A stretch of DNA of 64,000 bases, taken from the NCBI GenBank assembly GCA_020849655.1, contig JADLFU010000069.1, positions 1-64,000 of the forward strand. Direction: 5' to 3'. The stretch is from Polyangiaceae bacterium. GTDB taxonomy: Bacteria; Myxococcota_A; Polyangia; Polyangiales; Polyangiaceae. Positions within the stretch are counted from its first letter, which is position 1. Each line of letters begins with the position of its first letter. The notes under the pieces were generated by a model that searched no databases, had not been told where the DNA came from, and saw nothing but the letters and a program-made list of their open reading frames with translations. Position numbers and translations under genes: made by a program. Positions 30,889 to 43,787 of the stretch are shown here, piece by piece.

Positions 30889-30902
30889 TAGAACACGTTC
30901 TA
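30889..30902. promoter_or_regulatory. KstR-like operator upstream of the SDR/MaoC operon
   Basis: TAGAACACGTTCTA is a perfect inverted repeat (TAGAAC, two bases, GTTCTA) that fits the published KstR operator shape TnnAACnnGTTnnA. It ends 11 bases before the ATG at 30914, so bound repressor would block initiation. It matches two sites in the 36.7-kb divergent promoter. Confidence 0.7.
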
Positions 30903-30913
30903 CTTTCGCGCGC

Positions 30914-31687
30914 ATGGTCCCCGCCCCTCCCGCGCCCCGCGCGCTGCTCGCCGGCAAGAACGTGGTCGTCACCGCGGCGGCGGGCACCGGTATCGGCTTC
31001 GCGCTCGCGAGGCGCTGCGTCGAGGAGGGCGCGCGCGTGTTCGTGAGCGACATCCACGAGCGGCGGCTCGTGGCGGCCGTCGACGAGCTCGCGCGCGTCG
31101 CGGGCTCGGCGCCCGGCTCGGCGATCTGCGACGTCTCGAAGCAGGGCGACGTGGACGGCCTCTTCGAGAAGGCGGGCGCCGCGCTCGGCTCGATCGACGT
31201 GGTGATGAACAACGCCGGGCTCGGCGGCACCGCGAACGTCGTCGACATGACCGACGAGCAGTGGGGGAAGGTGCTCGACGTCTCGCTGACGGGCACGTTC
31301 CGCATGATGCGCGCGGCCCTCGCCCACATGATCCCGCGCCGCGCGGGCGCGATCGTCAACAACGCGAGCGTGCTCGGGTGGCGCGCGCAGGCGGGGCAGG
31401 CGCACTACGCCGCGGCGAAGGCTGGCGTGATGGCGCTCACGCGGTGCGCGGCGGTCGAGGCGGCGCCGCACGGCGTGCGCATCAACGCGGTCGCGCCGAG
31501 CCTGGCGATGCACCCGTTCCTCGCGAAGGTCACGACCGAGGAGCTGCTCCGCGAGCTGACGTCGCGAGAGGCCTTCGGGCGCGCGGCCGAGCCGTGGGAG
31601 GTCGCGAACGTGATGGTGTTCCTCGCGAGCGATCTCGCGTCGTACATGACCGGCGAGGTGCTCGCGGTGAGCAGCCAGCGAGCCTGA
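30914..31687 (+). CDS. Short-chain dehydrogenase/reductase
   Basis: 257 residues. The cofactor loop TAAAGTGIGFALAR, the NNAGLGG motif and the catalytic Ser/Tyr/Lys (NNASVLGW, YAAAK) are intact, so it should be an active NAD(P)-dependent alcohol or 3-hydroxyacyl-CoA dehydrogenase. It heads a four-gene operon (SDR, two MaoC-like hydratase genes, Ddn-like protein) directly behind a KstR-like operator. In that context oxidation of a 3-hydroxyacyl-CoA or a steroid hydroxyl is a reasonable inference. There is no clear ribosome site before ATG 30914, so the leader may be very short. Confidence 0.85.
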   Translation: MVPAPPAPRALLAGKNVVVTAAAGTGIGFALARRCVEEGARVFVSDIHERRLVAAVDELARVAGSAPGSAICDVSKQGDVDGLFEKAGAALGSIDVVMNNAGLGGTANVVDMTDEQWGKVLDVSLTGTFRMMRAALAHMIPRRAGAIVNNASVLGWRAQAGQAHYAAAKAGVMALTRCAAVEAAPHGVRINAVAPSLAMHPFLAKVTTEELLRELTSREAFGRAAEPWEVANVMVFLASDLASYMTGEVLAVSSQRA

Positions 31688-31699
31688 CAGGAGCGAGAC

Positions 31700-32149
31700 A
31701 TGGTCGACAGAGCGGCAGAGGGGAGCGCGGGCGCGCCCTTCGAGATGGAGATCGAGCGCGGCAAGGTCTACGAGTTCGCGAGCGCCATCAAGGCGGACCA
31801 CCCGGCGTACTTCGCGGCGTCGCCCGTCGCGCCGCCCACGTTCCTCACGACGACGTTCTTCTGGGAAGACCGCGTGCCCGGCGCGAACCCCTGGGCGGCG
31901 GTGAAGATGGATCAGCGGCGGGGGATGCACGCCGAGCAGGAGTACGAGTTCTTCGGGCCGCCGCCGCGCGCGGGCACGAAGCTCACTTGCCGCTCGACGA
32001 TCACGCGCATCTTCGACAAGTCGGGCAAGCGAGGCGGGCAGATGACGTTCGTGGTGATGGAGACGGAGTTCGTCGACGCGGAGGGCAAGCTCGTCGCCAG
32101 GGCGAAGATGACGGGCGTCGAGACGGCGCCCGCGCCGGAGGGCGAGTGA
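31700..32149 (+). CDS. FAS1-like dehydratase / MaoC N-type half hydratase
   Basis: 149 residues. EIERGKVYEFASAIKADHPA, APPTFLTTTFFW and the later FFGPPPRAGTKLTCRSTIT match single-hotdog proteins of the FAS1-like dehydratase type, like HadA/HadC of mycobacteria. Such subunits usually lack the catalytic Asp/His and pair with a MaoC subunit. That partner is the very next gene, overlapping by GTGA. Together they would hydrate an enoyl-CoA to an (R)-3-hydroxyacyl-CoA. It is preceded by AGGAGCGAGAC, a good ribosome site. Confidence 0.8.
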   Translation: MVDRAAEGSAGAPFEMEIERGKVYEFASAIKADHPAYFAASPVAPPTFLTTTFFWEDRVPGANPWAAVKMDQRRGMHAEQEYEFFGPPPRAGTKLTCRSTITRIFDKSGKRGGQMTFVVMETEFVDAEGKLVARAKMTGVETAPAPEGE

Positions 32150-32565
32150 AGCCCTGGGGCGAGTGGCGCGTCGGCGACGCGCTCGAGACGAACCACCTCG
32201 GCGAGGTCACGCGCACCGACGTCGTGCGGTACCAGGGCGCCTCCGGTGACATGAACCCCATCCACCACGACGAGCCTTTCGCGCGGGCCGCGGGCTACGA
32301 GGCGCCGCTCGTCGTCGGGATGTTCCAGGCGGGCGCGCTGTGCGCGTGGGCCGCGGGCATCTTCGGCCCCGAGCGGACGCGGCGCGCGCGCATCCGCTGG
32401 CAGGCGCGCGTGTGGCCGGGCGATCGCCTCGTCTTCACCGGGAAGGTCACGGCGCGCCACGAGGACGCCGGCGAGTCGCGCGTCGAGGTCGAGCTCGCGT
32501 GCCACAAGGACGACGGCGAGCTCTGTGTCACCGCGTGGATGACCTTCGCCGGGCCGCCCGCGTGA
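32146..32565 (+). CDS. MaoC-family hydratase (HadB/ChsH-like)
   Basis: 139 residues from a GTG start overlapping the preceding gene by 4 bases. The hydratase-2 motif is present: VVRYQGASGDMNPIHHDEPF, with Asp and His in YAxASGDxNPIHxD order, then VVGMFQAGALCAWA. It is therefore the catalytic hotdog partner of the preceding half hydratase. It would add water to an enoyl-CoA in beta-oxidation of a bulky or branched acyl-CoA. It is cytoplasmic and overlaps the next gene by GTGA. Confidence 0.85.
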   Translation: MKPWGEWRVGDALETNHLGEVTRTDVVRYQGASGDMNPIHHDEPFARAAGYEAPLVVGMFQAGALCAWAAGIFGPERTRRARIRWQARVWPGDRLVFTGKVTARHEDAGESRVEVELACHKDDGELCVTAWMTFAGPPA

Positions 32566-33044
32566 GGCCGCCCAAGCCGAAGCCCTGGGACGAGCTGTCC
32601 GCGCTCGAGCGCCACGCCGCGAACGCTGGCATCAAGTGGTCATCGAGGCTGAACGTGCTCCTGTACCGCGCGACGGGCGGCCGCGTCGGCGGGAGGTTCC
32701 TCGCGGGCGAGCCCTTGTTGTTGCTCACGACCATCGGCCACAAGTCGAGGCAGCGCCGGACGGTGCCGCTCATTTACCTCACAGACGGCGACGCCCTCGC
32801 CGTCGTCGCCAGCAAGGGCGGATCGCCCGATCACCCCGCCTGGTATGCCAACCTCTCGGCCGAGCCCCGCGTGGAGGTGCAGGTGGGCCCGCGCCGCGAG
32901 CCGCGCGTCGCCGAGACGGCCGATCCGCCGACGCGCGCCCGCCTCTGGCCCGCGCTGTGCGCGCTCTACCCGCCCTACCAGGAGTACCAGGACGTCACCC
33001 GTCGCGAGATCCCGGTGGTGCTCCTCCGACGCGCGCCCGGCTGA
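32562..33044 (+). CDS. Ddn-like deazaflavin (F420)-dependent nitroreductase-family protein
   Basis: 160 residues from GTG 32562 (GTGA overlap). Split-barrel signature: LYRATGGRVGGRF, LLLLTTIGHKSRQRRTVPLIYL, DALAVVASKGGSPDHPAWYANL. This resembles the mycobacterial Ddn/FDOR-A group, which uses coenzyme F420 to reduce quinones, nitro groups or activated double bonds. Its place at the end of a lipid-CoA operon suggests a reductive step on a substrate ring or double bond. A second F420-type protein is encoded at 41558-42589. F420 use in this organism is inferred. Confidence 0.8.
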   Translation: MRPPKPKPWDELSALERHAANAGIKWSSRLNVLLYRATGGRVGGRFLAGEPLLLLTTIGHKSRQRRTVPLIYLTDGDALAVVASKGGSPDHPAWYANLSAEPRVEVQVGPRREPRVAETADPPTRARLWPALCALYPPYQEYQDVTRREIPVVLLRRAPG

Positions 33045-33070
33045 GCGCGCTCGGCCCAGGTCGGCGCTCA
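33042..33070. terminator. Candidate bidirectional terminator hairpin between convergent operons
   Basis: TGAGCGC (33042-33048) and GCGCTCA (33064-33070) form a perfect 7-bp inverted repeat around a 15-base loop. The repeat includes both stop codons of the convergent genes. No T-tract is visible, so intrinsic termination is only a possibility. Confidence 0.35.
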
Positions 33071-34615
33071 GATGGCGCGCGAGCGGCCGGCCCAGTAGGG
33101 ATCGCGCAGCTTGCGCTTGTAGAGCTTGCCGTTGGGATCACGCGGCATCTCGCTGGTGAAATCGATGCTCTTCGGCACCTTGAACCTCGCGATCCTCTCC
33201 GCGAGGAAGGCGGTGAGCTCGCCCGCCAGCGCGGCCCCAGGCTCGGCGCCGGGCGCGGGCTCGACGACGGCCTTGATCTCCTCGCCCCAGTCGTCGTTGG
33301 GCACGCCGAACACGGCGGCGTCGAGCACCTTCGGGTGGGCCAGGAGCGCGGCCTCGATCTCGGCAGGATAGATGTTGACGCCGCCGGAGATGATCATGTC
33401 GCTCTTGCGATCGACGAGGTACAGGAACCCCTCCTCGTCGAGGTAGCCCGCGTCGCCGACAGTGAAGAAGTCACCCGACCAGGACGAGGCCGTCTTCTCT
33501 TGGTCCTTGTGGTACTCGAACCTGTGGGCCCCCATGCTCATGTAGACGGTGCCCACCTCGCGCGGCGCGCACACCGAGCCGTCGTCCTTGCGCACCTCGA
33601 TCCGCGAGATCGGCCAGGCCTTGCCCACCGTGCCGGGGTGCGCGCGCCAGTCGTCCGGGCTCGCCACCGTGCCGCCGCCCTCGGACGCCGCGTAGTACTC
33701 CCAGATGGATGATCCCCACCAATCCAACATGGCCTGCTTCACGTCGACGGGGCAGGGCGCGGCGCTGTGGATGGCGTGACGAAACGACGAGACGTCGTGG
33801 CGCGCGCGCTCCTCGGCGGGCAGCGCCAGGAGGCGACGAAACTGTGTGGGCACCATGTGGGTCGCCGTCACCTTGTGCTTCGCCACCAGCTCGAGCATCC
33901 CCTCCGGCGTCCACTTGTCCATCAGCACCACGGCGTGGCCGTTGTGCAGGTGGTTGGTGCAGAAGTTGAGCACCGCTGTGTGGTACAGCGGCGAGACGAC
34001 GAGGTGCACGCCGTCGCGCGGGGTGATGCCGAACAACCCGAGGAACATCGCCTGCATCGTCGCCGTGACCTCCGGCGCCACGTCGGCGATCGGGCGGCGC
34101 ACGCCCTTCGGCTTGCCCGTCGTGCCTGAGGTGTAGCTCATCGGCGCGCCCGCGACGCGGTCGGCCGGCGCCCCGTCGGGCTGGCCGAGGAGCAGCGCCT
34201 CGAACGGCGCGAACCCGGGCACGTCGCCGGTCGCGAACCGCTGCGCCGCCGTGAGCCCCGCCTCGTCGGCGGCGGCGGCGACCACCCCGGCGACGGCGGG
34301 CGACGCGACGACCAGCCGCGCCTCGCTGTCGCCGAGGATGTACGCGATCTCGGGCGCCGCGAGGTTGACGTTGATGGGCGTGTAGTAGACGCCGATCTGC
34401 GCCGTCGCCATGAACAGCTCGACGACGGCGGCCTCGTTCTTCAGGACGACCGCGACGCTGTCGCCCCTCCTCACCCCGCGCGCGCGCAGGCCGTGCGAGA
34501 GGCGGTTCACGCGGGCGAGCAGCGCCCCCGCCGTCTGCGCGCGGCCCTTCGCGTCGACGAGCGCGGTGTCGTCGGGGCGCTCGGCGGCCAGCTTCCAGAA
34601 CCCGAGGTGGGACAT
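33068..34615 (-). CDS. Acyl-CoA synthetase (AMP-forming, FadD-type)
   Basis: 515 residues from ATG 34615. ANL-superfamily motifs are complete: SYTSGTTGKPKGV (P-loop), VVSPLYHTAVL, YYAASEGGG, GDAGYLDEEGFLYLVDRKSDMIISGG, and a C-terminal PRDPNGKLYKRKLRD with the catalytic Lys region. It activates a carboxylic acid to its CoA ester at the expense of ATP. It resembles FadD3/FadD-type enzymes in KstR-like regulons, but the acid is unknown. It is the last gene of the minus-strand operon (SCP2, MlaE, SDR, this). The SDR gene ends 11 bases before its start. Confidence 0.92.
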   Translation of the reverse strand: MSHLGFWKLAAERPDDTALVDAKGRAQTAGALLARVNRLSHGLRARGVRRGDSVAVVLKNEAAVVELFMATAQIGVYYTPINVNLAAPEIAYILGDSEARLVVASPAVAGVVAAAADEAGLTAAQRFATGDVPGFAPFEALLLGQPDGAPADRVAGAPMSYTSGTTGKPKGVRRPIADVAPEVTATMQAMFLGLFGITPRDGVHLVVSPLYHTAVLNFCTNHLHNGHAVVLMDKWTPEGMLELVAKHKVTATHMVPTQFRRLLALPAEERARHDVSSFRHAIHSAAPCPVDVKQAMLDWWGSSIWEYYAASEGGGTVASPDDWRAHPGTVGKAWPISRIEVRKDDGSVCAPREVGTVYMSMGAHRFEYHKDQEKTASSWSGDFFTVGDAGYLDEEGFLYLVDRKSDMIISGGVNIYPAEIEAALLAHPKVLDAAVFGVPNDDWGEEIKAVVEPAPGAEPGAALAGELTAFLAERIARFKVPKSIDFTSEMPRDPNGKLYKRKLRDPYWAGRSRAI

Positions 34616-34626
34616 CGGCGGCTCCG

Positions 34627-35379
34627 TCAGCAGGACATGGCGGCGTCGACGACGAGCGACGTGCCGCTGATGTAGGAGGCGTCCGAGGAGGCGAGGAACG
34701 CGATCGCCGCGGCGACCTCGTCGGGCGTCGCGTACCTGTCGAGGATCGGCGCGATGCGCGTGAGCTGCTGCGGGCTGCCGCCCGGCGGCAGCGAGAACTG
34801 GCTGATCATCGGCGTCTCGACGCCGCCCGGGCACACGCAGTTCACGCGGATCCCCTTGCGCGCGTACTCGACCGCGAGCGCCTTCATCAGCTGCACGACG
34901 CCGCCCTTCGAGGCGCAGTACGCCGCGCTGTACGGGTGGGACTTGAGCCCGGCGATCGACGCGCAGAGCACGATCGCGCCCTTCTGCGCGATGACGTGCG
35001 GCAGCGCCGCCTGCGCCATCAGGAACGACCCGGTCAGGTTGACGGCGATCATCCGGCTCCACATCTCGAACGTGACGTCGAGCGTGCGGTGAAACCCGCC
35101 GACGCCCGCGACGTTGGCGAGCACGTCGAGCTTGCCGAACGACGAGACGGCGCGCAGGACGGTGGCCTTGGCGTCGTCCGGGAGGGAGACGTCGCAGCGC
35201 ACGCTCTCGGCCGTCCCGCCCGCGTCGGTGATGAGCTTGACCGTCTCCGCAGCGCCGTCGACGTTGACGTCGGCGACGAGCACCTTCGCGCCCTCGAGCG
35301 CGAGCCTCCTCGCGGTCGCGCGGCCGATACCCGAGCCCGCGCCGGTGACGACGGCGGACTTGCCTTCGAATCGCTTCAT
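34627..35379 (-). CDS. Short-chain dehydrogenase/reductase
   Basis: 250 residues from ATG 35379, with a strong ribosome site (AGGAGGGCACC). FabG-like motifs are present: VTGAGSGIGRATARRLA, NVAGVGG, LCASIAGL and YCASKGGV (Tyr, Lys), with VCPGGVETPM. It is an NAD(P)-dependent oxidoreductase for a hydroxyacyl-CoA or sterol-type hydroxyl. It lies between MlaE and the acyl-CoA synthetase gene in the operon thought to be controlled from the 36.7-kb operators. It ends with AMSC. Confidence 0.88.
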   Translation of the reverse strand: MKRFEGKSAVVTGAGSGIGRATARRLALEGAKVLVADVNVDGAAETVKLITDAGGTAESVRCDVSLPDDAKATVLRAVSSFGKLDVLANVAGVGGFHRTLDVTFEMWSRMIAVNLTGSFLMAQAALPHVIAQKGAIVLCASIAGLKSHPYSAAYCASKGGVVQLMKALAVEYARKGIRVNCVCPGGVETPMISQFSLPPGGSPQQLTRIAPILDRYATPDEVAAAIAFLASSDASYISGTSLVVDAAMSC

Positions 35380-35450
35380 GGTGCCCTCCTGGGCGCGCCG
35401 ACGGAGAGCCCGGCGGCGGCGTGTGTGCGTGGTGAGTGAAGGGCGCCGCG

Positions 35451-36284
35451 TCAGCCGGGGAACACGATGACGCCGGCGCCCGAGATGAAGAAGTTCAACA
35501 TGATGACGGCGAGCGAGCAGCTGACGACCGCGCGCGTGGTCGCCCAGCCGACGCCCTCGCTGCCGCCGTAGGTCGACAGGCCGCAGTAGCCCGCGACGAC
35601 GGGGATGGCCGTCGAGTACGCGACGCACTTGGTCGCGCCGACGGCGATGTCACCCCAGTCGACGAGCGCCGCGTTGAGGAACGTGCGCGGCGCGACGTCG
35701 AAGTACATCGCCGCGACGAGCGTGCCCGAGGCGATGGCCATCGCGCCGCCGCAGATGATGACCGCGGTCGACATCACGATGCTCGCGAGCATCCGCGGCT
35801 TGATGAGGTAGTCGATCGGATCCGCGCCGCACATCCTGAGCGCGTCGACCTGCTCGGTCACCATCATCGCGCCGATCTCGGCGGCGATGCCCGCGCCGAC
35901 GCGCGTCGCGATCATCAGCGACGCGATCGACGCCGCGAGATCGCGGATGAGCAGCTCGAGGTACATCGCCCCGAGCATCGTCAGATCGGGCACGACGCGG
36001 TTCGCCTGGATCCCCGCCTGGAACACCACGATGCCGCCGAAGAACGCCATCACGATGCAGATGAAGAAGAGCGACTTGTTGCCGATCTCGTACATGTAGT
36101 GGGCGAGCGCGCCCGGCTCGCGGCGCCCGCGCACGACGTAGTAGAGCGTGCGGACGAAGACGCCGTAGATGCCGGCGAAGTCGCCCCACACCTCGATGCC
36201 GGCCTGACCGATCGAGCCGAGCGTCGCCGTGACGACGCCCGCCTCTGGCTCCTCTCGATCGATCGTGCCGGCGCTCTCGCTCAT
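35451..36284 (-). CDS. MlaE/YrbE-family ABC transporter permease
   Basis: 277 residues with about five to six membrane segments (FICIVMAFFGGIVVFQ, IASLMIATRVGAGIAAEIGA, STAVIICGGAMAIASG, AVVSCSLAVIMLNFFISG). The family signature is clear: RVGAGIAAEIGAMMVTEQVDALR. It is the permease type of the Mla lipid transporter and of mycobacterial Mce/YrbE systems, of which YrbE4 imports cholesterol under KstR control. No ATPase or MCE substrate-binding gene is adjacent, so partners must be elsewhere. Its start overlaps the SCP2 stop (ATGA). Lipid import or retrograde transport is inferred. Confidence 0.88.
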   Translation of the reverse strand: MSESAGTIDREEPEAGVVTATLGSIGQAGIEVWGDFAGIYGVFVRTLYYVVRGRREPGALAHYMYEIGNKSLFFICIVMAFFGGIVVFQAGIQANRVVPDLTMLGAMYLELLIRDLAASIASLMIATRVGAGIAAEIGAMMVTEQVDALRMCGADPIDYLIKPRMLASIVMSTAVIICGGAMAIASGTLVAAMYFDVAPRTFLNAALVDWGDIAVGATKCVAYSTAIPVVAGYCGLSTYGGSEGVGWATTRAVVSCSLAVIMLNFFISGAGVIVFPG

Positions 36285-36625
36285 TTCCCGGAGTTGGGCG
36301 GAAGGAAGGCTTGCATCTTCTGCGCGAGCATCACGTTACCCGAAACCTTCAGCAGGCCGCGCATGAACGCCATCGTCCCGCCGAGATCGCCGTTGACCAT
36401 CTTCACGTAGTTCGGCGCGTCCATCTTGATGGTCGTCGTCGGGGAGGCCGTCGCCCCCTCCGTCACCTTCATCGTGCCGTCGTCGATGTCGACGTGCCAC
36501 GTGCCGCCGCCGTCGCCCGTGATCTCGAACTGGAAGGTCGCCTTCACGCCCTTCGCCGCGCTCGCGATGAAGCGCTCGTTCAGCGTCTCGAAGTAGTGCT
36601 GCACGCTGTTGACCCTGATTCCCAT
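36281..36625 (-). CDS. SCP2 sterol-transfer family protein
   Basis: 114 residues from ATG 36625, chosen because the AGGAG box is 8 bases upstream of it and only 2 from the ATG at 36631. The SCP2 fold shows as VQHYFETLNERFI, ATFQFEITGDGGGTWHVDID, GMKV-type GTMKVTEG, TTTIKMDAPNYVKMVNGDL and GLLKVSGNVMLAQKM. These small proteins bind sterols, fatty acyl-CoA or other lipids in the cytoplasm. It is the first gene of the minus-strand operon; upstream lie two KstR-like operators. Pairing with an MlaE permease supports a lipid uptake role. Confidence 0.88.
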   Translation of the reverse strand: MGIRVNSVQHYFETLNERFIASAAKGVKATFQFEITGDGGGTWHVDIDDGTMKVTEGATASPTTTIKMDAPNYVKMVNGDLGGTMAFMRGLLKVSGNVMLAQKMQAFLPPNSGK

Positions 36626-36674
36626 CGGCATTTCTCCTGTTCGGCGGCCCGCGGCCGGCCCGTAGAGCACGATG

Positions 36675-36688
36675 TAGAACATGTTTCA
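36675..36688. promoter_or_regulatory. KstR-like operator 1 in the divergent promoter
   Basis: TAGAACATGTTTCA fits TnnAACnnGTTnnA with one imperfect arm. It lies 50 bases upstream of the SCP2 start on the minus strand, and with the identical copy at 36720 spans the divergent promoter. It probably controls the minus-strand operon. Confidence 0.65.
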
Positions 36689-36719
36689 CTCCATCCGACA
36701 AGCGGGTTGACCGCCTGAG

Positions 36720-36733
36720 TAGAACATGTTTCA
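36720..36733. promoter_or_regulatory. KstR-like operator 2 in the divergent promoter
   Basis: This is an exact copy of the site at 36675 (TAGAACATGTTTCA), 45 bases away. It ends 10 bases before the GTG at 36744, nearly the same distance as the operator upstream of 30914 has to its ATG. An ATG lies inside the operator itself (36726), which argues against that ATG as the true start. Confidence 0.65.
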
Positions 36734-36743
36734 GTCGTGGCCC

Positions 36744-38768
36744 GTGACCGACGACGACCAGGCCCCGCCCGAGCCGCCGGCGCTGCTGTCGCGCGAGGGC
36801 GCCGTGGCCGTCGTGACGATGAACCGCCCGCGCTACCGCAACGCGCAGAACATGGCGATGACGTACGCGCTCGACGACGCGTTCGCCGAGGCGGTGCGCG
36901 ACGACGCGGTGAAGGTGATCGTGCTCGCGGGCGCGGGCGATCACTTCTCGGCGGGGCACGACATCGGCACGCCGGGGCGCGACATCCACCAGCCGTTCGA
37001 CGGGCGCGCGACGGTGAAGTGGGAGCACGCGGGCCGGCCTGGCGCGGAGGGCACGTTCGTGCGGGAGGCCGAGGCGTACCTCGGCATGTGCCGTCGCTGG
37101 CGCGAGCTGCCGAAGCCGACGATCGCGATGGTGCAGGGCGCGTGCGTCGCGGGCGGGCTGATGCTCGCGTGGTGCTGCGATCTCGTGGTCGCGGCCGACG
37201 ACGCGTTCTTCGCCGATCCGGTCGTGAAGATGGGCATCCCCGGCGTCGAGTACTTCGCGCACCCGTACGTGATGGGCCCGCGCTTCGCGAAGGAGCTGTT
37301 GTTCACCGGCGAGCGCGTGCCCGCCGCGCGCGCGCTCGCGATGGGCATGGTCAACCGGGTCGTGCCGCGCGCGAGCCTGCGCGACGAGGCGCTCGGGCTC
37401 GCGGCGAAGATCGCGGAGATGCCGCGGTTCGGCCTGTTGCTCGCGAAGCGCGCGGTGAACCAGGCCGAGGACAGGATGGGCCTGCGCGACTCGATGGACG
37501 CCGCGTTCGGCCTGCACCACCTCGCGCACGCGCACAACTCGCTCTCGTCGCCCGACCACCTGCAGGGGCACGACGCGAAGAGCATGGCGAAGGGGCTGAA
37601 GTTACCGATGGATCTCGAGCTGTCGCCGAGCGAGCTCGCGTTTCGCGACGACGCGCGGCGGTGGCTCGCCGACAACGTGCCCGAGGGGCGGCTCTCCGGC
37701 GACACGGCCGACGGGTTCCGCGCGCTCCGCGCGTGGGAGGCGCGCCTCTTCGACGCGCGGTGGGCCGTGGTCTCGTGGCCGGAGGTGTTCGGCGGGCGGG
37801 GCGCGTCGGCCGTCGAGTGGCTGCTCTTCGAGGAGGAGTACTACCGCGCCGGCGCCCCGCAGCGCATCGCGCAGAACGGCATCTTCCTGCTCGCGCCCAC
37901 GCTGTTCGAGTTCGGCACCGACGAGCAGAAGGCGCGCGTGTTGCCGCGCATGGCGGCCGGCCTCGACGTCTGGGCGCAGGGCTGGAGCGAGCCCGGGGCC
38001 GGCAGCGATCTCGCCGGCGTGTCGAGCCGCGGCGTGCGCGACGACGCCCGCGGGGGGTGGCGCCTCACCGGCCAGAAGACCTGGTGCACGCGCGGCGCGT
38101 TCTGCGACTACCTGTTTGGATTGTTTCGTACGGATCCGTCGTCCGAGCGGCACAAGGGGCTCACGTACCTGATGGCGAGCCTGCGCGCGCCCGGCGTCAC
38201 GGTGCGGCCCGTCGGTCGGCTCGACGGCGAGCCGGGCTTCGCCGACGTGTTCTTCGACGACGTGTTCGTGCCGGACGCCGACGTCATCGGCGCGGCGGGC
38301 GAGGGGTGGACGGTCGCGATGACCACGGCGTCGAGCGAGCGCGGCCTCACGCTGCGCAGCCCCGGCCGGTACGTCGCGGCGGCGCGGCGGCTCGTCGAGC
38401 TCGTGCGCCGTCACCCGTCGCCGCACCCGGCGCTCCGCGACGCGGTCGCGCGGGTGCACATGGAGGCCGAGGCGAACCACCTCTACACCCTGCAGACGGT
38501 GACGAAGGTGCAGCGCGGAGAGGCGCTCGGCGCCTCCGCGAGCATCAACAAGATCCTCTGGTCGGAGCTCGACGTCGCGCTGCACGACGCGGCGCTCGCG
38601 CTGCTCGGCGACCGCGCCGAGCTCGTCGCCGGCGCCCGCCTGGCCGAGGACGACGGCGCGTGGATGAAGGGCTTCCAGTTCGCGCTGGCGGGGCCCATCT
38701 ACGCAGGCACCAACGAGATCCAGCGCAACGTGATCGCCGAGCGATTGCTGGGGCTGCCGCGCAAATGA
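36744..38768 (+). CDS. Enoyl-CoA hydratase in one open frame with acyl-CoA dehydrogenase
   Basis: 674 codons from GTG 36744; the ATG at 36726 is inside an operator. Residues 1-286 are a crotonase: MNRPRYRNAQN, FSAGHDIG (oxyanion region), QGACVAGGLMLAWCCDLVVA and FTGERVPAARA. Codon 287 is TTA (37602-37604). Two codons later ATG 37608 starts a full 386-residue acyl-CoA dehydrogenase: LELSPSELAFRDDARRW, QGWSEPGAGSDLA, KTWCTRGAFCDY and YAGTNEIQRNVIAERLLG. Here the usual YEG catalytic Glu is Ala. Each half has normal length, so two proteins or a rare fusion are both possible. The stop overlaps the next gene (ATGA). Confidence 0.8.
   Translation: MTDDDQAPPEPPALLSREGAVAVVTMNRPRYRNAQNMAMTYALDDAFAEAVRDDAVKVIVLAGAGDHFSAGHDIGTPGRDIHQPFDGRATVKWEHAGRPGAEGTFVREAEAYLGMCRRWRELPKPTIAMVQGACVAGGLMLAWCCDLVVAADDAFFADPVVKMGIPGVEYFAHPYVMGPRFAKELLFTGERVPAARALAMGMVNRVVPRASLRDEALGLAAKIAEMPRFGLLLAKRAVNQAEDRMGLRDSMDAAFGLHHLAHAHNSLSSPDHLQGHDAKSMAKGLKLPMDLELSPSELAFRDDARRWLADNVPEGRLSGDTADGFRALRAWEARLFDARWAVVSWPEVFGGRGASAVEWLLFEEEYYRAGAPQRIAQNGIFLLAPTLFEFGTDEQKARVLPRMAAGLDVWAQGWSEPGAGSDLAGVSSRGVRDDARGGWRLTGQKTWCTRGAFCDYLFGLFRTDPSSERHKGLTYLMASLRAPGVTVRPVGRLDGEPGFADVFFDDVFVPDADVIGAAGEGWTVAMTTASSERGLTLRSPGRYVAAARRLVELVRRHPSPHPALRDAVARVHMEAEANHLYTLQTVTKVQRGEALGASASINKILWSELDVALHDAALALLGDRAELVAGARLAEDDGAWMKGFQFALAGPIYAGTNEIQRNVIAERLLGLPRK
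37602..37610 (+). other. TTA-CCG-ATG junction inside the hydratase/dehydrogenase frame
   Basis: The hydratase sequence ends with KGLK just before TTA (37602-37604). CCG and then ATG (37608-37610) open a typical acyl-CoA dehydrogenase N-terminus. There is no stop in this frame and no strong ribosome site; the nearest purine run is AAGGGG, over ten bases upstream. If TTA were TAA, two ordinary genes would result. Confidence 0.6.
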
Positions 38769-39751
38769 GGTTCGCGCTCTCCGACGAGCAGGTGCAGGCG
38801 GCCGCGTCGCTGCGCGGCCTGCTCGCGCGCGAGTTCCCCGCGACGAGGCTCCGCTCGCGGTGGGAGGGCGCGCCCGACGACGGCGCCGTCTGGCGCCACC
38901 TGACCGCGATGGGGCTGCCCGCGATGCTCGTGCCCGACGCCGACGGCGGGCTCGGCGGCGACGAGCTCGATCTCGTGTCGCTGCTCGAGGAGTGCGGCCG
39001 CGCGGGCGTGCCGGGCCCGGTCGTCGAGACGTGCGCGGTCGCGCCGAGGCTGCTCGCGTCCCGTGGCGGCGCGCTCGCGGCGGGCGAGCTCCAGGTCGCG
39101 TGCGGGGACGGCGAGGCGCCGCTCGTCGCCGACGCCGACGTCGCCGAGTGCCTCGTGCTCTGCCTCGGCGACGACGCGTTCGCGCTCGATCGGGCCGCCG
39201 TCACGCTGTCCGAGCGGCAGCCCTCGGTCGACGGCGCGCGCTCCCTCTTCGAGGTGCGGTGGAGCCCGGCGGACGGCGAGCGCGTCGGGGACGCGGCGGG
39301 CGTGCGCGCGCGCATGTCGGCGGGGCTCGCGGCGGCGCTGGTGGGCCTCTCGCGCCGGATGCTCGACCTGGCCGCGGAGTACGTGCAGGTGCGGCGGCAG
39401 TTCGGCGTCCCGGTGGGGAGCTTCCAGGCGGTGAAGCACCCGCTCGCGACCGCGCTCGTGCGCCTGTCGGTCGCGCGGCCGGTCGTGCTGCGCGCGGCGT
39501 ACTCGCTCGCGCGGCGCGACCCCGCGGCGGCCCTGCACGCGTCGATGGCGAAGGCCTTCGCGGCCGAGTCGGCCCTGCTGTCGGCGCGCGTGGCGCTGCA
39601 GGCGCACGGCGCGATCGGCTACTCGTTCGAGCATGATCTGCACCTCTTCATGAAGCGCGCGTGGGCGCTCTCCGCCGCGTTCGGCGGCCCGCTCGAGCAC
39701 CGCGAGCGCGTCGCCTCTCACCTGTTCGACCTCACCCCGGAGACACCCTGA
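38765..39751 (+). CDS. Acyl-CoA dehydrogenase, short partner subunit
   Basis: 328 residues, shorter than the 380-400 usual for the family. MRFALSDEQVQAAASLRGLL and LPDADGG-type VPDADGGLGGDELDL begin it; the middle beta domain is reduced. The C-terminal domain has QVRRQFGVPVGSFQAVKHPL and LQAHGAIGYSFEHDLHLFMK, the style of the second subunit of heteromeric FadE enzymes of steroid catabolism. It overlaps the preceding dehydrogenase by ATGA, so an alpha2beta2 complex is a strong inference. The YEG-type catalytic Glu is absent here as well, replaced by the FEHD region. Confidence 0.85.
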   Translation: MRFALSDEQVQAAASLRGLLAREFPATRLRSRWEGAPDDGAVWRHLTAMGLPAMLVPDADGGLGGDELDLVSLLEECGRAGVPGPVVETCAVAPRLLASRGGALAAGELQVACGDGEAPLVADADVAECLVLCLGDDAFALDRAAVTLSERQPSVDGARSLFEVRWSPADGERVGDAAGVRARMSAGLAAALVGLSRRMLDLAAEYVQVRRQFGVPVGSFQAVKHPLATALVRLSVARPVVLRAAYSLARRDPAAALHASMAKAFAAESALLSARVALQAHGAIGYSFEHDLHLFMKRAWALSAAFGGPLEHRERVASHLFDLTPETP

Positions 39752-39752
39752 C

Positions 39753-40904
39753 ATGGCCCAGGCCTACCTCATCGACGCAGTCCGCACGCCCGTCGGCAAG
39801 CGCAACGGATCCCTCGCGAAGGTGCACCCGATCGATCTCGGCGCGCACGTGCTCTCCGCGCTGATGGAGCGCACGAAGATCGATCCCGCGGCCGTCGAGG
39901 ACGTGGTGATGGGCTGCGTCGACACCATCGGCCCGCAGGCCGGCGACATCGCGCGCAACTGCTGGCTCGCGGCCGGCCTCCCCGACGAGGTGCCCGGCGT
40001 CACGGTCGACCGCCAGTGCGGCTCGTCGCAGCAGGCGCTCCACTTCGCGGCGCAGGGCGTGCTCAGCGGCACGCAGGACCTCGTCGTCGCCGCGGGCGTG
40101 CAGAACATGAGCATGGTGCCCATCGGCGCGGCGATGATCACCGGCAAGGAGTTCAACCTGCCGGAGCGCCTCGCGGGCTCTGCCGGGTGGGTGAAGCGCT
40201 ACGGCGACGGGCCGGTGTCGCAGTTTCGCTCGGCCGAGATGATCGCCGAGAAGTGGGGCCTCTCGCGCGAGGACATGGAGCGCTTCGCGTATGACAGCCA
40301 CCAGCGGGCGGTGCGCGCGGGCGACGAGGGGCGCTTCGCGCGGGAGATCGTGCCGATCGCGGGCCTCGCCGCGGACGAGGGCCCGCGGCGCGAGACGACG
40401 CTCGAGAAGATGGCGACGCTGAAGACGATCGAGCCCGGCGGGCGCCTGACGGCGGCGGTCTCGAGCCAGATCTCGGACGGCGCGTCGGCCGTCCTGCTCG
40501 CCTCCGAGGCGGCCGTGAAGACCCACGGCCTGCGGCCTCGCGCGCGCATCCACCACCTCTCGGTGCGCGGCGCCGATCCGATCTGGATGCTGACGGCGCC
40601 CATCCCGGCGACGGCGTACGCGCTCTCGAAGGCGGGCCTGAAGATCGACGACATCGATCTCGTCGAGATCAACGAGGCGTTCGCGTCGGTCGTGATGGCC
40701 TGGGAGAAGGAGACGGGCATGTCGCACGACAAGGTCAACGTCAACGGCGGCGCCATCTCGCTCGGCCACCCGCTCGGCGCGACGGGGCTGCGGCTGATGT
40801 CGACCCTGCTCTGCGAGCTCGAGCGCACCGGCGGGCGCTACGGCCTGCAGACGATGTGCGAGGGCGGCGGCCAGGCGAACGTGACCATCATCGAGCGCCT
40901 CTGA
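39753..40904 (+). CDS. Thiolase (acetyl-CoA acyltransferase)
   Basis: 383 residues. The nucleophilic Cys is in VTVDRQCGSSQQA (Cys89). The His motif is NGGAISLGHPLGATG, the second Cys is TMCEGGGQ, and the NEAF loop is present, so all catalytic residues are intact. It cleaves 3-oxoacyl-CoA with CoA, releasing acetyl- or propionyl-CoA. It starts 1 base after the short dehydrogenase and completes a beta-oxidation set (hydratase, dehydrogenase pair, thiolase) in one operon. It resembles FadA5/FadA6-type thiolases, but the chain or ring substrate is not known. Confidence 0.92.
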   Translation: MAQAYLIDAVRTPVGKRNGSLAKVHPIDLGAHVLSALMERTKIDPAAVEDVVMGCVDTIGPQAGDIARNCWLAAGLPDEVPGVTVDRQCGSSQQALHFAAQGVLSGTQDLVVAAGVQNMSMVPIGAAMITGKEFNLPERLAGSAGWVKRYGDGPVSQFRSAEMIAEKWGLSREDMERFAYDSHQRAVRAGDEGRFAREIVPIAGLAADEGPRRETTLEKMATLKTIEPGGRLTAAVSSQISDGASAVLLASEAAVKTHGLRPRARIHHLSVRGADPIWMLTAPIPATAYALSKAGLKIDDIDLVEINEAFASVVMAWEKETGMSHDKVNVNGGAISLGHPLGATGLRLMSTLLCELERTGGRYGLQTMCEGGGQANVTIIERL

Positions 40905-40916
40905 TAGAAGGGCGCC

Positions 40917-41561
40917 ATGCGACCGCAGCGACAGAGCAGGCGCGGCCCGCCGAAGGGCAAGGTCAGCCGGCGCGACGCGATCATGGACGTCGGCATCGAG
41001 CTCGCGGAGGCCGGCGGCTACGACAACGTGCGCCAGCGCGAGGTCGCGGAGCGCGCGGGGATCGCGCTCGGCACGCTGTACAAGAGCTTCCGCAGCAAGG
41101 AGGACATCCTCGTCGCGGCGCTCGCGCGCGGCGCCCAGGAGACGGAGGACCGCCTCGTCGCGCACCCGCCCCGCGGCCGCACGCCCGCCGCGCGCGTGGC
41201 GGCCTTGTTCGCGGATCTGACCTCGACGATGCTCGCGCGCCCCCACTTCGCTCGCGCCGTCATCCGCGCGATGGCGTCGGGCGAGCCCGAGGTCGCCGGC
41301 AACATCGCGTCGTACTACGGGCGCATGAGCGGCCTCGTCGTGGCTGCGCTCCGCGGCAAGGCGGTGCTCGGTGACGACGACGACGCGCCGTCCGACGCGG
41401 AGCTCACGGTCGCGTCGCTCCTGTTGCAGATATGGTTCTCGTCGCTCGTGGGCTGGTCCGCGGGGCTGACGGACGAGCAGGGCGTGGGCGCGCGCGTCGG
41501 CGGCGCGGTCGACATCCTGCTGCGCGGGGTCGCGGAGAAGAAGAAGGAGAGGAACAAATGA
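40917..41561 (+). CDS. TetR-family repressor, KstR-like
   Basis: 214 residues. The N-terminal basic arm is followed by a TetR HTH at about 35-62: GGYDNVRQREVAERAGIALG then TLYKSFRSKEDILVAAL. This pattern and the C-terminal helix (VASLLLQIWFSSLVGW) resemble actinobacterial KstR, the repressor of cholesterol catabolism. KstR is released from DNA by a steroid-CoA thioester. The gene is inside the operon it probably regulates, and KstR-shaped operators lie at that operon's promoter and at 30889. The ligand is inferred to be an acyl-CoA. The next gene overlaps by ATGA. Confidence 0.85.
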   Translation: MRPQRQSRRGPPKGKVSRRDAIMDVGIELAEAGGYDNVRQREVAERAGIALGTLYKSFRSKEDILVAALARGAQETEDRLVAHPPRGRTPAARVAALFADLTSTMLARPHFARAVIRAMASGEPEVAGNIASYYGRMSGLVVAALRGKAVLGDDDDAPSDAELTVASLLLQIWFSSLVGWSAGLTDEQGVGARVGGAVDILLRGVAEKKKERNK

Positions 41562-42589
41562 AGCTCGGGCTGATGATGGGGTACTCCGGTGCCCAGCTCT
41601 CCATCGACATCGACATGATCAAGGAGGCCGAGCGCCTCGGCTACGACTCCGTGTGGACCGCGGAGGCGTGGGGCTCGGACGCCGTCTCGCCGCTCGCGTG
41701 GGTCGCCGCGCAGACGACGAAGATCCGCCTCGGCACCGGGATCATGCAGCTGCCCGGGCGCTCCCCCGCGAACACCGCGATGACGGCGATGACGATGGAC
41801 GCGCTCTCGAAGGGCAGGTTCATCCTCGGCCTCGGCACCTCGGGCCCGCAGGTCGTCGAGGGCTGGCACGGCGTGCCCTTCGGCAAGCCGCTCACCTGGC
41901 TGAAGGAGTACGTCGCGATCGTGAAGCAGATCCTCGCGCGCGAGCAGCCGCTCACGTTCGAGGGCGAGCGCTACCAGATCCCCTACCGCGGGCCGGGCGC
42001 GACGGGCCTCGGGAAGCCCCTGAAGAGCATCCTGCACGGGACGAAGAACATCCCCATCTACACGGGCTCGATGGCGCCGAAGAGCCAGGCGTTCGCCGCC
42101 GAGCACGTCGACGGCCTGTTGCTCACGTGCATGCACCCGGAGCGCTTCGATGTCCTCAGGCCCAACCTCGAGGAGGGGTTCAAGGCGAGCGGCGGCGCGA
42201 AGAGCCTCGCGAACTTCGACGTCGCGCCGACCGTGGCCGTCATCGTAGGCGACGATCTCGACGCGTGCCGCGGCCCGCTGAAGGCGAGCCTGTCGCTCTA
42301 CATCGGCGGCATGGGCGCGAAGGACAAGAACTTCTACGCCGACTACATCCGCAAGATCGGCTTCGAGGCGGACGCCAACAAGATCCAGGAGCTGTACCTC
42401 GCCGGCAAGAAGGGCGAGGCGATGGCCGCCGTGCCGGACGCGCTCGTCGATGCGCTGCACCTCGTGGGGCCCAAGGAGCGCATCCGCGACAGGTTCCAGG
42501 CGTGGAAGGCGTCGCCCGTCGGCACGATGATCATCGGCGCGATGCAGCCCGAGGCGATCCGCCTGGCGGCTGAGCTCGCGGCGAGCTGA
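41558..42589 (+). CDS. LLM-class F420-dependent oxidoreductase
   Basis: 343 residues from ATG 41558, with AAGAAGGAGAGGAAC just upstream. TIM-barrel luciferase-like features: KLGLMMGYSGAQL, AERLGYDSVWTAEAWGSDA, IRLGTGIMQLPGRSPANTAM and FILGLGTSGPQVVEGWHG. This is the pattern of F420-dependent members such as mycobacterial LLM enzymes (including glucose-6-phosphate dehydrogenase-like and reductase forms). It is the last gene of the KstR-like operon, overlapping the regulator by ATGA. It could oxidise or reduce a ring or alcohol of the substrate. Confidence 0.88.
   Translation: MKLGLMMGYSGAQLSIDIDMIKEAERLGYDSVWTAEAWGSDAVSPLAWVAAQTTKIRLGTGIMQLPGRSPANTAMTAMTMDALSKGRFILGLGTSGPQVVEGWHGVPFGKPLTWLKEYVAIVKQILAREQPLTFEGERYQIPYRGPGATGLGKPLKSILHGTKNIPIYTGSMAPKSQAFAAEHVDGLLLTCMHPERFDVLRPNLEEGFKASGGAKSLANFDVAPTVAVIVGDDLDACRGPLKASLSLYIGGMGAKDKNFYADYIRKIGFEADANKIQELYLAGKKGEAMAAVPDALVDALHLVGPKERIRDRFQAWKASPVGTMIIGAMQPEAIRLAAELAAS

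Positions 42590-42617: not shown

Positions 42618-43787
<1,170 letters not shown>

Follow-up and report, generated by a model that had tools for sequence, protein, structure and literature searches.

Introduction

The described systems closest to the locus reported here are the mycobacterial regulators KstR and KstR2. For KstR, Kendall and colleagues gave the palindrome TAGAAC(N2)GTTCTA with the core TnnAACnnGTTnnA, with many sites between divergent genes and two motif copies between Rv3570c and Rv3571 (PMC1995591); the title of a KstR structure records its crystallisation with 3-oxo-4-cholesten-26-oyl-CoA. KstR2 binds AnCAAGnnCTTGnT, including a site between Rv3549c and Rv3550, which is echA20 (PMC3068626, PMC5380842). 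The sections used here of Bergstrand 2016 (PMC4810484) and Holert 2018 (PMC5790920) place the steroid degradation pathway only in Actinobacteria and Proteobacteria, and the latter found all ten genes in no other phylum; the words "deltaproteobacteria" and "myxo-" are absent from the main texts of both. In this work we analysed a 64-kb stretch of DNA from a Polyangiaceae bacterium, hereafter the window, which carries the gene of a TetR-family regulator (P0001) in one of three operons marked by KstR-type operators. An initial annotation made from the letters of the window had rightly called the genome myxobacterial and had suggested a sterol or complex-lipid regulon parallel to that of Actinobacteria, a suggestion now supported by operators before steroid-type genes across the genome. 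We conclude with good confidence, on sequence evidence, that a Polyangiaceae-like myxobacterium most probably has a genome-wide KstR-type regulon for steroid degradation, whose regulator and three of whose operons lie in the window.

KstR-type operators in the window and in the source genome

The window (73% G+C) contains exactly three matches to TnnAACnnGTTnnA, at 30889, 36675 and 36720. All three had been annotated and all are exact; 100 dinucleotide shuffles of the window gave a mean of 0.04 matches, and none gave three. Because a single divergent promoter carries both the 36675 and the 36720 operator, the three sites represent two promoter regions and three operons, so that the three annotated operons stand while the idea of a separate promoter for each does not. 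The same pair of sites is found in the related locus L057 from Myxococcota bacterium KLAP97, which holds the nearest regulator outside the source genome (74% identical) and in which eight of the genes in the window operons have counterparts with 79-95% protein identity. Two of the called starts, 36682 (SCP2) and 36726, share 8 bases with the operators. Comparison with L057 puts the true SCP2 start probably near 36625, and the start of 36726..38768 is uncertain because the called ATG falls within the operator. The regulator gene has no operator directly upstream in the window and is the fourth gene behind the site at 36720. The operators and genes are as follows (SDR, short-chain dehydrogenase/reductase; ORF, open reading frame; E, expect value).

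30889..30902, + strand: KstR-type operator TAGAACACGTTCTA, exact match; promoter site of the SDR-MaoC-MaoC-Ddn operon, whose called start 30914 lies 12 bp downstream
36675..36688, + strand: KstR-type operator TAGAACATGTTTCA, exact match, serving the leftward SCP2-MlaE-SDR-FadD operon
36720..36733, + strand: KstR-type operator TAGAACATGTTTCA, exact match, serving the rightward operon with the regulator
30914..31687, + strand: SDR oxidoreductase (NCBIfam PRK07831, 419.1 bits, above the cut-off of 336)
31700..32149, + strand: MaoC/FAS1-dehydratase-like hydratase subunit (PF13452, E 6.3e-19)
32146..32565, + strand: MaoC hydratase subunit (PF01575, E 3.8e-15)
32562..33044, + strand: deazaflavin-dependent oxidoreductase, Ddn-like (PF04075 on the longer ORF 32340-33044; TIGR00026, 104.3 bits, cut-off 46.35)
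33068..34615, - strand: AMP-forming acyl-CoA synthetase (PF00501 on the longer ORF 33068-35062; best model FadD4, 478.1 bits, below the cut-off of 850)
34627..35379, - strand: SDR oxidoreductase (PF13561 on the longer ORF 34627-35628; PRK07231, 232.4 bits, cut-off 215)
35451..36284, - strand: MlaE-family lipid permease (PF02405, E 1.2e-49)
36281..36682, - strand: SCP2 sterol-transfer domain protein (PF02036, E 7.3e-20)
36726..38768, + strand: enoyl-CoA hydratase::acyl-CoA dehydrogenase fusion (PF00378 with PF02771/PF02770/PF00441; PRK08290, 433.2 bits, cut-off 280)
38765..39751, + strand: acyl-CoA dehydrogenase (best model IpdE2, 120.4 bits, below the cut-off of 450)
39753..40904, + strand: thiolase PRK07801 (695 bits, above the cut-off of 591)
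40917..41561, + strand: TetR-family regulator of KstR type, P0001 (by profile, PDB sequence, predicted fold and tree)
41558..42589, + strand: LLM-class F420-dependent oxidoreductase, Rv3520c subfamily (TIGR03559, 377.3 bits, above the cut-off of 335, on the longer ORF 41432-42589)

The SCP2 protein, MlaE permease, acyl-CoA synthetase, SDRs (here two), MaoC pair, thiolase and F420-type enzymes (here one Ddn-like and one of LLM class) had all been correctly named from the sequence. The content given for the regulator operon (hydratase, two acyl-CoA dehydrogenases and thiolase) also holds, except that the hydratase and the first dehydrogenase are not separate but one fused protein (36726-38768). 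We take the SDR at 30914..31687 to be IpdF-like and the thiolase at 39753..40904 to be FadA6-like; these labels and the other Ipd names used below are putative, assigned from gene order and model names. A second thiolase, of FadA type, adjoins the regulon on the minus strand (42618-43787) and has no operator of its own.

The source assembly has a size of 6.56 Mb, a completeness of 96.94% and a contamination of 4.17%, and consists of 307 contigs; no 16S rRNA was found in it. Here the loose motif TnnAACnnGTTnnA gave 45 matches against 12 reversed, and the tight form TRRAACRYGTTYYA accounts for 17 of the 45 against 1 reversed, an enrichment that is in part built in, since the sites of the window and the matches in this genome were the source of the tight form. 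More independent are two tests given below, the count across the phylum and the search for the motif just before the regulator, with several of the 80 loci sharing genomes with the phylum sample. All 17 tight matches lie at most 83 bp from the nearest start called by our own simple gene caller, and two overlap the start by 8 bases (the scanned loci are 7.1% non-coding). For the 28 loose-only matches, 24 fall inside called genes and two (C33 and C139) lie outside genes and at most 100 bp before a start. The 17 tight sites fall into 14 promoter regions, of which three carry a pair, and nearly all precede steroid-, acyl-CoA- or redox-type genes; the motif is thus not equally frequent at unrelated promoters, an outcome that the initial annotation had named as a refutation. 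The KstR2 palindrome AnCAAGnnCTTGnT showed no enrichment across the genome (3 forward against 4 reversed), and a second, KstR2-like regulator was rejected on this count.

The two loose-only promoters carry sites with one mismatch. On C139 (L009 4792-4838), TGTAACGTGTTCTA and TGATACGTGTTTCA lie between a divergent acyl-CoA synthetase and acyl-CoA dehydrogenase, a pair that is probably a further regulon member. On C33 (L187 1993), TGCAACGTGTTTCA stands 9 bp upstream of the called start of a putative exported protein and is a possible further operator.

Genes behind the operators

The genes found behind the operators are given by contig; both SDRs at contig ends were named by eye.

C11: FAD_binding_2 oxidoreductase downstream of the operator
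C39: ChsH2-type OB proteins; Ltp-type thiolases PRK07937 and PRK08313 and acyl-CoA synthetase PRK07798, all above cut-off; two acyl-CoA dehydrogenases
C66: GMC oxidoreductase
C69: the two window regions; also a KshA-type protein, with an alpha/beta hydrolase divergent from it
C83: KstD-like N-terminal piece, truncated where the contig stops; on its other side a divergent L-aspartate-oxidase-like gene (identified by eye)
C94: aldehyde dehydrogenase and SDR
C120: 4Fe-4S ferredoxin
C159: KshA-type protein and P450
C218: KshA-type protein
C230: KshB-like reductase (best model PaaE, below cut-off)
C230: double site between EchA19 and the run KshA-HsaA-HsaC-HsaD-HsaE-HsaG-HsaF followed by two acyl-CoA dehydrogenases and an SDR
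C247: double site between an SDR and the EchA20::IpdA-IpdB-IpdC-like genes

The four operator-linked Rieske proteins that were scanned all combine a Rieske domain with the KshA_C domain PF19298 (133-183 bits, cut-off 23.3), and we regard them as four candidate KshA-type oxygenases behind operators. The KstD-like piece of C83, 148 residues long, has 3-ketosteroid-delta-1-dehydrogenase as its best model (151.4 bits, cut-off 789). On C230, HsaA-like (448.2 bits, cut-off 450), HsaC-like (217, cut-off 450) and HsaD-like (193.1, cut-off 400) proteins are encoded in a single gene run in pathway order, at which the EchA19-like protein is also found, while the aldolase (555.9, cut-off 286), acetaldehyde dehydrogenase (468.1, cut-off 282.25) and hydratase (377.4, just below the cut-off of 408.8) of this run are general meta-cleavage enzymes. 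The best plasmid-borne relatives of the HsaA-like and HsaC-like proteins are a Novosphingobium protein (54.5% identical) and a Rhodococcus protein (48.8%), respectively. On C247, an EchA20-type hydratase (PRK07938, 404.2 bits, cut-off 260) is fused to a CoA_trans domain (PF01144, 100.9, cut-off 23); a second PF01144 protein, IpdB-like, scores 25.9 bits, and the FabK-like protein that we call IpdC-like scores 247.9, below the cut-off of 453.1. This fusion of hydratase and IpdA-like CoA-transferase occupies L014 7127-8734 and is followed by the IpdB- and IpdC-like genes.

Taken together, the operator-tagged genes look like most of the 9,10-seco steroid pathway, with side-chain, A/B-ring and C/D-ring types. 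A steroid substrate is suggested by the KshA-, HsaA-, HsaC-, HsaD-, IpdAB- and KstD-like proteins of the regulon.

The regulator is closest to KstR

The NCBIfam scan of P0001 listed ten families, with no PsrA model among them, and KstR came first (E 5.5e-31, 107.6 bits), followed by MftR (29.7), Bacillus FadR (28.0) and BetI (26.6). P0001 is 26-28% identical to KstR, and in a single-sequence search of PDB sequences the first four matches were KstR entries, one of which, 3mnl, is listed as a TetR protein with KstR in its structure title. A profile of 25 sequences again placed KstR entries in the first four positions (127.5 bits), ahead of a Rhodococcus TetR protein (86.7) and Mce3R (56.2). The AlphaFold model of P0001 has a pLDDT of 90.9, and its first 17 Foldseek matches were KstR chains with TM (target) of 0.84-0.93, headed by DNA-bound KstR 5fmp (E 3.6e-10, TM target 0.90, root-mean-square deviation 1.6). 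Six chains of the Rhodococcus TetR protein 3bjb followed, and then Thermus FadR (E 2.2e-5, TM (target) 0.66). Thus, although P0001 resembles the FadR/PsrA-type TetR regulators of fatty-acid breakdown in its TetR fold and acyl-CoA context, it differs from FadR in both model score and fold match; by profile, solved sequence and predicted fold it is closest to KstR, in keeping with the KstR-like features annotated for 40917-41561.

A regulator phylogeny had also been proposed at the outset. Our tree has 85 rows, four of the 80 relative loci described below being dropped for a stop or short length; in it the regulator groups with KstR, and the refuting outcome named at the outset, grouping with a TetR family that binds a different palindrome, was not found in this tree, outside which lie the KstR2, PsrA and FadR sequences named in the proposal. 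Myxococcota-type regulators form a clade (support 98/99) that also takes in rows titled Dadabacteria, Binatota, Hydrogenedens, Spirochaeta, Proteobacteria or just bacterium, and two actinobacterial-titled proteins from metagenome-assembled genomes (MAGs) branch beside it (86/91). M. tuberculosis KstR clusters with Nocardia and Tsukamurella proteins and a Mycolicibacterium plasmid TetR protein (96/96), and Embleya and Nonomuraea proteins branch separately from this cluster. The root is weak because both outgroups are long branches. A profile made from the Myxococcota-type proteins alone gave scores of 94-134 bits for six actinobacterial plasmid or PDB sequences, of 148 and 164 for the actinobacterial pair from MAGs, and of 34 and 14 for the outgroup TetR proteins. 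That the regulator was recently acquired from a single actinobacterium was considered and finds no support in this weakly rooted tree.

Five records (L107, L132, L133, L135, L136), whose titles name Dadabacteria, Binatota, Hydrogenedens, Acidimicrobiia and Actinomycetes, also encode KstR-like proteins; in three of them (L107, L133, L135) the regulator match is preceded by the palindrome at a distance of no more than about 130 bp.

Related loci and co-occurrence across the phylum

A genome-collection scan gave 141 relative loci, of which we used the best 80. These contain 127 copies of the tight motif in 1.17 Mb, with at least one in 68 of the 80 and none for the reversed motif, and in 57 loci a copy lies at -250 to +10 of the regulator match, which supports autoregulation as a probable property of the KstR-like regulator. 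In L058 a single contig carries the run KshA-HsaA-HsaC-HsaD-HsaE-HsaG-HsaF, another KshA-type gene and the regulator, and two operators lie between the regulator and a divergent acyl-CoA dehydrogenase, at most a candidate FadE34. L066 (6881-12903) has an operator on each side of the KstR-like gene: one lies between the regulator and a divergent, full-length KstD homologue (509.1 bits, cut-off 789), and the other precedes an ABC-MlaE-MlaE-ABC-MlaD-MlaD operon. This operon recalls mce4 and is a candidate steroid importer of Myxococcota; a Tsukamurella gene annotated kstR also precedes two ABC permeases and MlaD-family genes.

The phylum sample comprised 377 genomes including the source genome, with a limited number of candidates scored per genome. 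A KstR-like protein (E 1e-28 or better) was found in 108 of them and the motif in 184; the median motif count was 4 with a KstR-like protein versus 0 without. At least three motifs were present in 86 of the 108 versus 12 of the other 269 (Fisher 4e-50). For HsaC, a match was called strong at 235 bits or more, a line set after the scores were seen (the nearest below it, in G305, is 231.6), and 35 genomes passed; 27 of these have at least eight motifs, versus 9 of the 342 others (Fisher 1.4e-26). Both p-values overstate the case because the genomes are related. Regulator, palindromes and HsaC co-occur in the phylum, although strong HsaC is missing from most genomes that carry a KstR-like protein.

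HsaA was searched in 16 chosen genomes. Among those with at least eight motifs and no strong HsaC, G293, G052 and G277 have a good HsaA match, with an HsaC fragment also in G293 and G052; the HsaA matches of G288 are weak, and none was found in G163, G314, G331, G218 or G273. Three genomes (G089, G321, G348) have a strong HsaC-like dioxygenase and no motif excess, with no HsaA match (G089) or matches of about 35% identity (G321, G348); their HsaC-like enzymes probably belong to a different aromatic pathway.

Comparison with the known systems

Like mycobacterial KstR (Rv3574) and its regulon, the system described here combines a TetR fold, a 14-bp palindrome with the core TnnAACnnGTTnnA (TAGAAC(N2)GTTCTA in its best form), many sites at divergent promoters, and genes of side-chain and ring types. 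The Rv3570c/Rv3571 region, which we take from its gene identities to be a ring-degradation promoter, carries two motif copies in mycobacteria, and here two copies stand between KshA-HsaA and EchA19. An own-gene site is likewise shared by most relatives examined, and in the window the regulator operon begins at the 36720 site. It differs from KstR in its host phylum, in the position of the regulator within a fadA6-like operon, of which it is the fourth gene rather than being transcribed divergently from fadE34, in the KstR-type operator of C/D-ring-type genes, and in the inclusion of MlaE and SCP2 genes (a comparison made without a genome-wide mce4 search).

The regulon may also resemble that of KstR2 in its EchA20-, IpdA/B-, IpdC-, FadA6- and IpdE2-like genes, and the regulator adjoins a fadA6-like gene as kstR2 does. 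However, the counterpart of the mycobacterial divergent SDR/echA20 promoter, where KstR2 has a site, is marked here by a pair of KstR-type sites (L014 8747 and 8847), and the EchA20- and IpdA-like parts are fused, whereas the sections of the actinobacterial papers used here treat them as separate genes (PMC3068626, PMC5380842). The KshA-, HsaA-, HsaC- and HsaD-type ring cleavage predicted here is that of 9,10-seco steroid degradation in Actinobacteria and Proteobacteria, while the phylum differs, and for Proteobacteria no KstR-type regulon is described in the parts of PMC4810484 and PMC5790920 used here. Among the open-access PMC matches listed, none reports a KstR or steroid-degradation regulon for Myxococcota, myxobacteria or Deltaproteobacteria; the matches followed up concern sterol synthesis, hydroxylation, gut surveys, sludge cobalamin makers or reference lists.

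Proposed regulation and alternative explanations

From these data we propose that dimeric P0001 would sit on TRRAACRYGTTYYA at or beside each operon start and keep the regulon off, its own operon being repressed through the 36720 site. By analogy with KstR, a steroid acyl-CoA intermediate from side-chain breakdown would release it. P0001 may also cover the task of KstR2, the C/D-ring genes: one repressor appears to serve both regulons, because genes of C/D-ring type are preceded by KstR-type sites, without any excess of the KstR2 palindrome. Uptake would be handled by the SCP2 and MlaE proteins of the window, and in L066 by the MlaE/MlaD operon beside the regulator.

Several observations weigh against a steroid regulon of KstR type. 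P0001 lies below the curated cut-off of 280 for NCBIfam NF033703 (KstR), as do its relatives in L066 (114.2), L058 (113.9) and the Acidimicrobiia-titled L135 (172.7); by sequence logic it would work like KstR, while strict membership by the NCBI cut-off fails. The HsaA-, HsaC-, HsaD- and IpdE2-like proteins are all below their NCBI cut-offs, and the HsaC-like protein scores higher on a biphenyl dioxygenase model (301.5, cut-off 366.45). KstD is represented solely by the 148 residues at a contig end, the source genome being split into 307 contigs, and neither FadD3 nor HsaB was recognised among the proteins scanned, no genome-wide search having been aimed at either. Across the phylum, 76 of the 108 genomes with a KstR-like protein have fewer than eight sites, with strong HsaC in 5 of the 76, and the HsaA-to-HsaF run lies near the regulator in one of the 80 loci (L058). 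G163 (24 motifs) and G314 (10 motifs) have no HsaC or HsaA match, and in G163 (L161-L183), where a KstR-like regulator is present, 17 of the 24 exact palindromes are inside genes. Raw motif counts can therefore mislead, and the count was dropped as a sole proxy for the regulon; in the genus of G163 the palindrome may be there for another reason. Because sites are few and HsaC and HsaA are rare near the regulator, steroid degradation is not demonstrated for most KstR-like Myxococcota.

These phylum counts favour an explanation in which P0001 is a general repressor of fatty-acid or branched-lipid breakdown that responds to fatty acyl-CoA, with the steroid genes a later addition in some lineages. 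So does tblastn on the 80 regulator loci: 33 have Ltp4-like, 27 Ltp3-like and 25 FadD-like genes, part of them of low identity, and 1 has HsaA- and HsaC-like genes. However, Ltp- and ChsH2-like genes fit sterol side-chain breakdown equally well, the operators of the source genome precede KshA-, KshB-, KstD-, HsaA-G- and IpdABC-like genes, and the predicted fold of P0001 is far nearer KstR than FadR, so we consider this explanation unlikely. Actinobacterial contamination or a recent transfer of the steroid genes from Actinobacteria would agree with the fragmented assembly, its contamination value and the description of KstR from actinomycetes (PMC1995591). It is hard to reconcile with the closely matching operon genes of the Myxococcota-titled L057, with a regulator inside a supported, mostly Myxococcota clade, and with the co-occurrence of regulator, motif and HsaC in many assemblies of the phylum, and it seems highly improbable. 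The palindromes might instead be real operators bound by another TetR protein, as the genome holds four further weak matches to P0001 (five in all); none of the four is among the matches listed, the lowest of which is near 54 bits, and the motif lies just before the regulator match in most relatives, which leaves this very unlikely. That the palindromes are chance matches has a precedent in the intragenic copies of G163, by which the sequence can recur without an operator role, but the excess over shuffled and reversed controls and the position of all 17 tight sites at called starts make it practically negligible. The steroid-degradation regulon thus remains the explanation that we prefer, and we hold it very likely that a KstR-like, sister-branch repressor with an operator-defined steroid regulon is real in Myxococcota.

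Implications

An operator-tagged regulon with most of the pathway adds Myxococcota, known here from environmental assemblies, as candidate steroid degraders, and it provides a second KstR branch for studying the evolution of operator and ligand recognition. The 14-bp tag could find unknown steroid genes, including those for transport, in many assemblies, and since the palindrome is common to distant phyla, common origin versus transfer becomes directly testable. We lean slightly towards the wider view that KstR-type repression is not an actinobacterial invention, that Myxococcota own an old KstR branch with the same palindrome, and that their steroid-eaters use one repressor from uptake (MlaE/MlaD, SCP2) by way of the side chain and A/B rings to the C/D rings, a route for which Actinobacteria employ both KstR and KstR2. 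Sterol making is on record for myxobacteria (PMC6678751). If this view is true, such a single-repressor route would serve myxobacterial feeding on eukaryotic or sterol-making bacterial prey.

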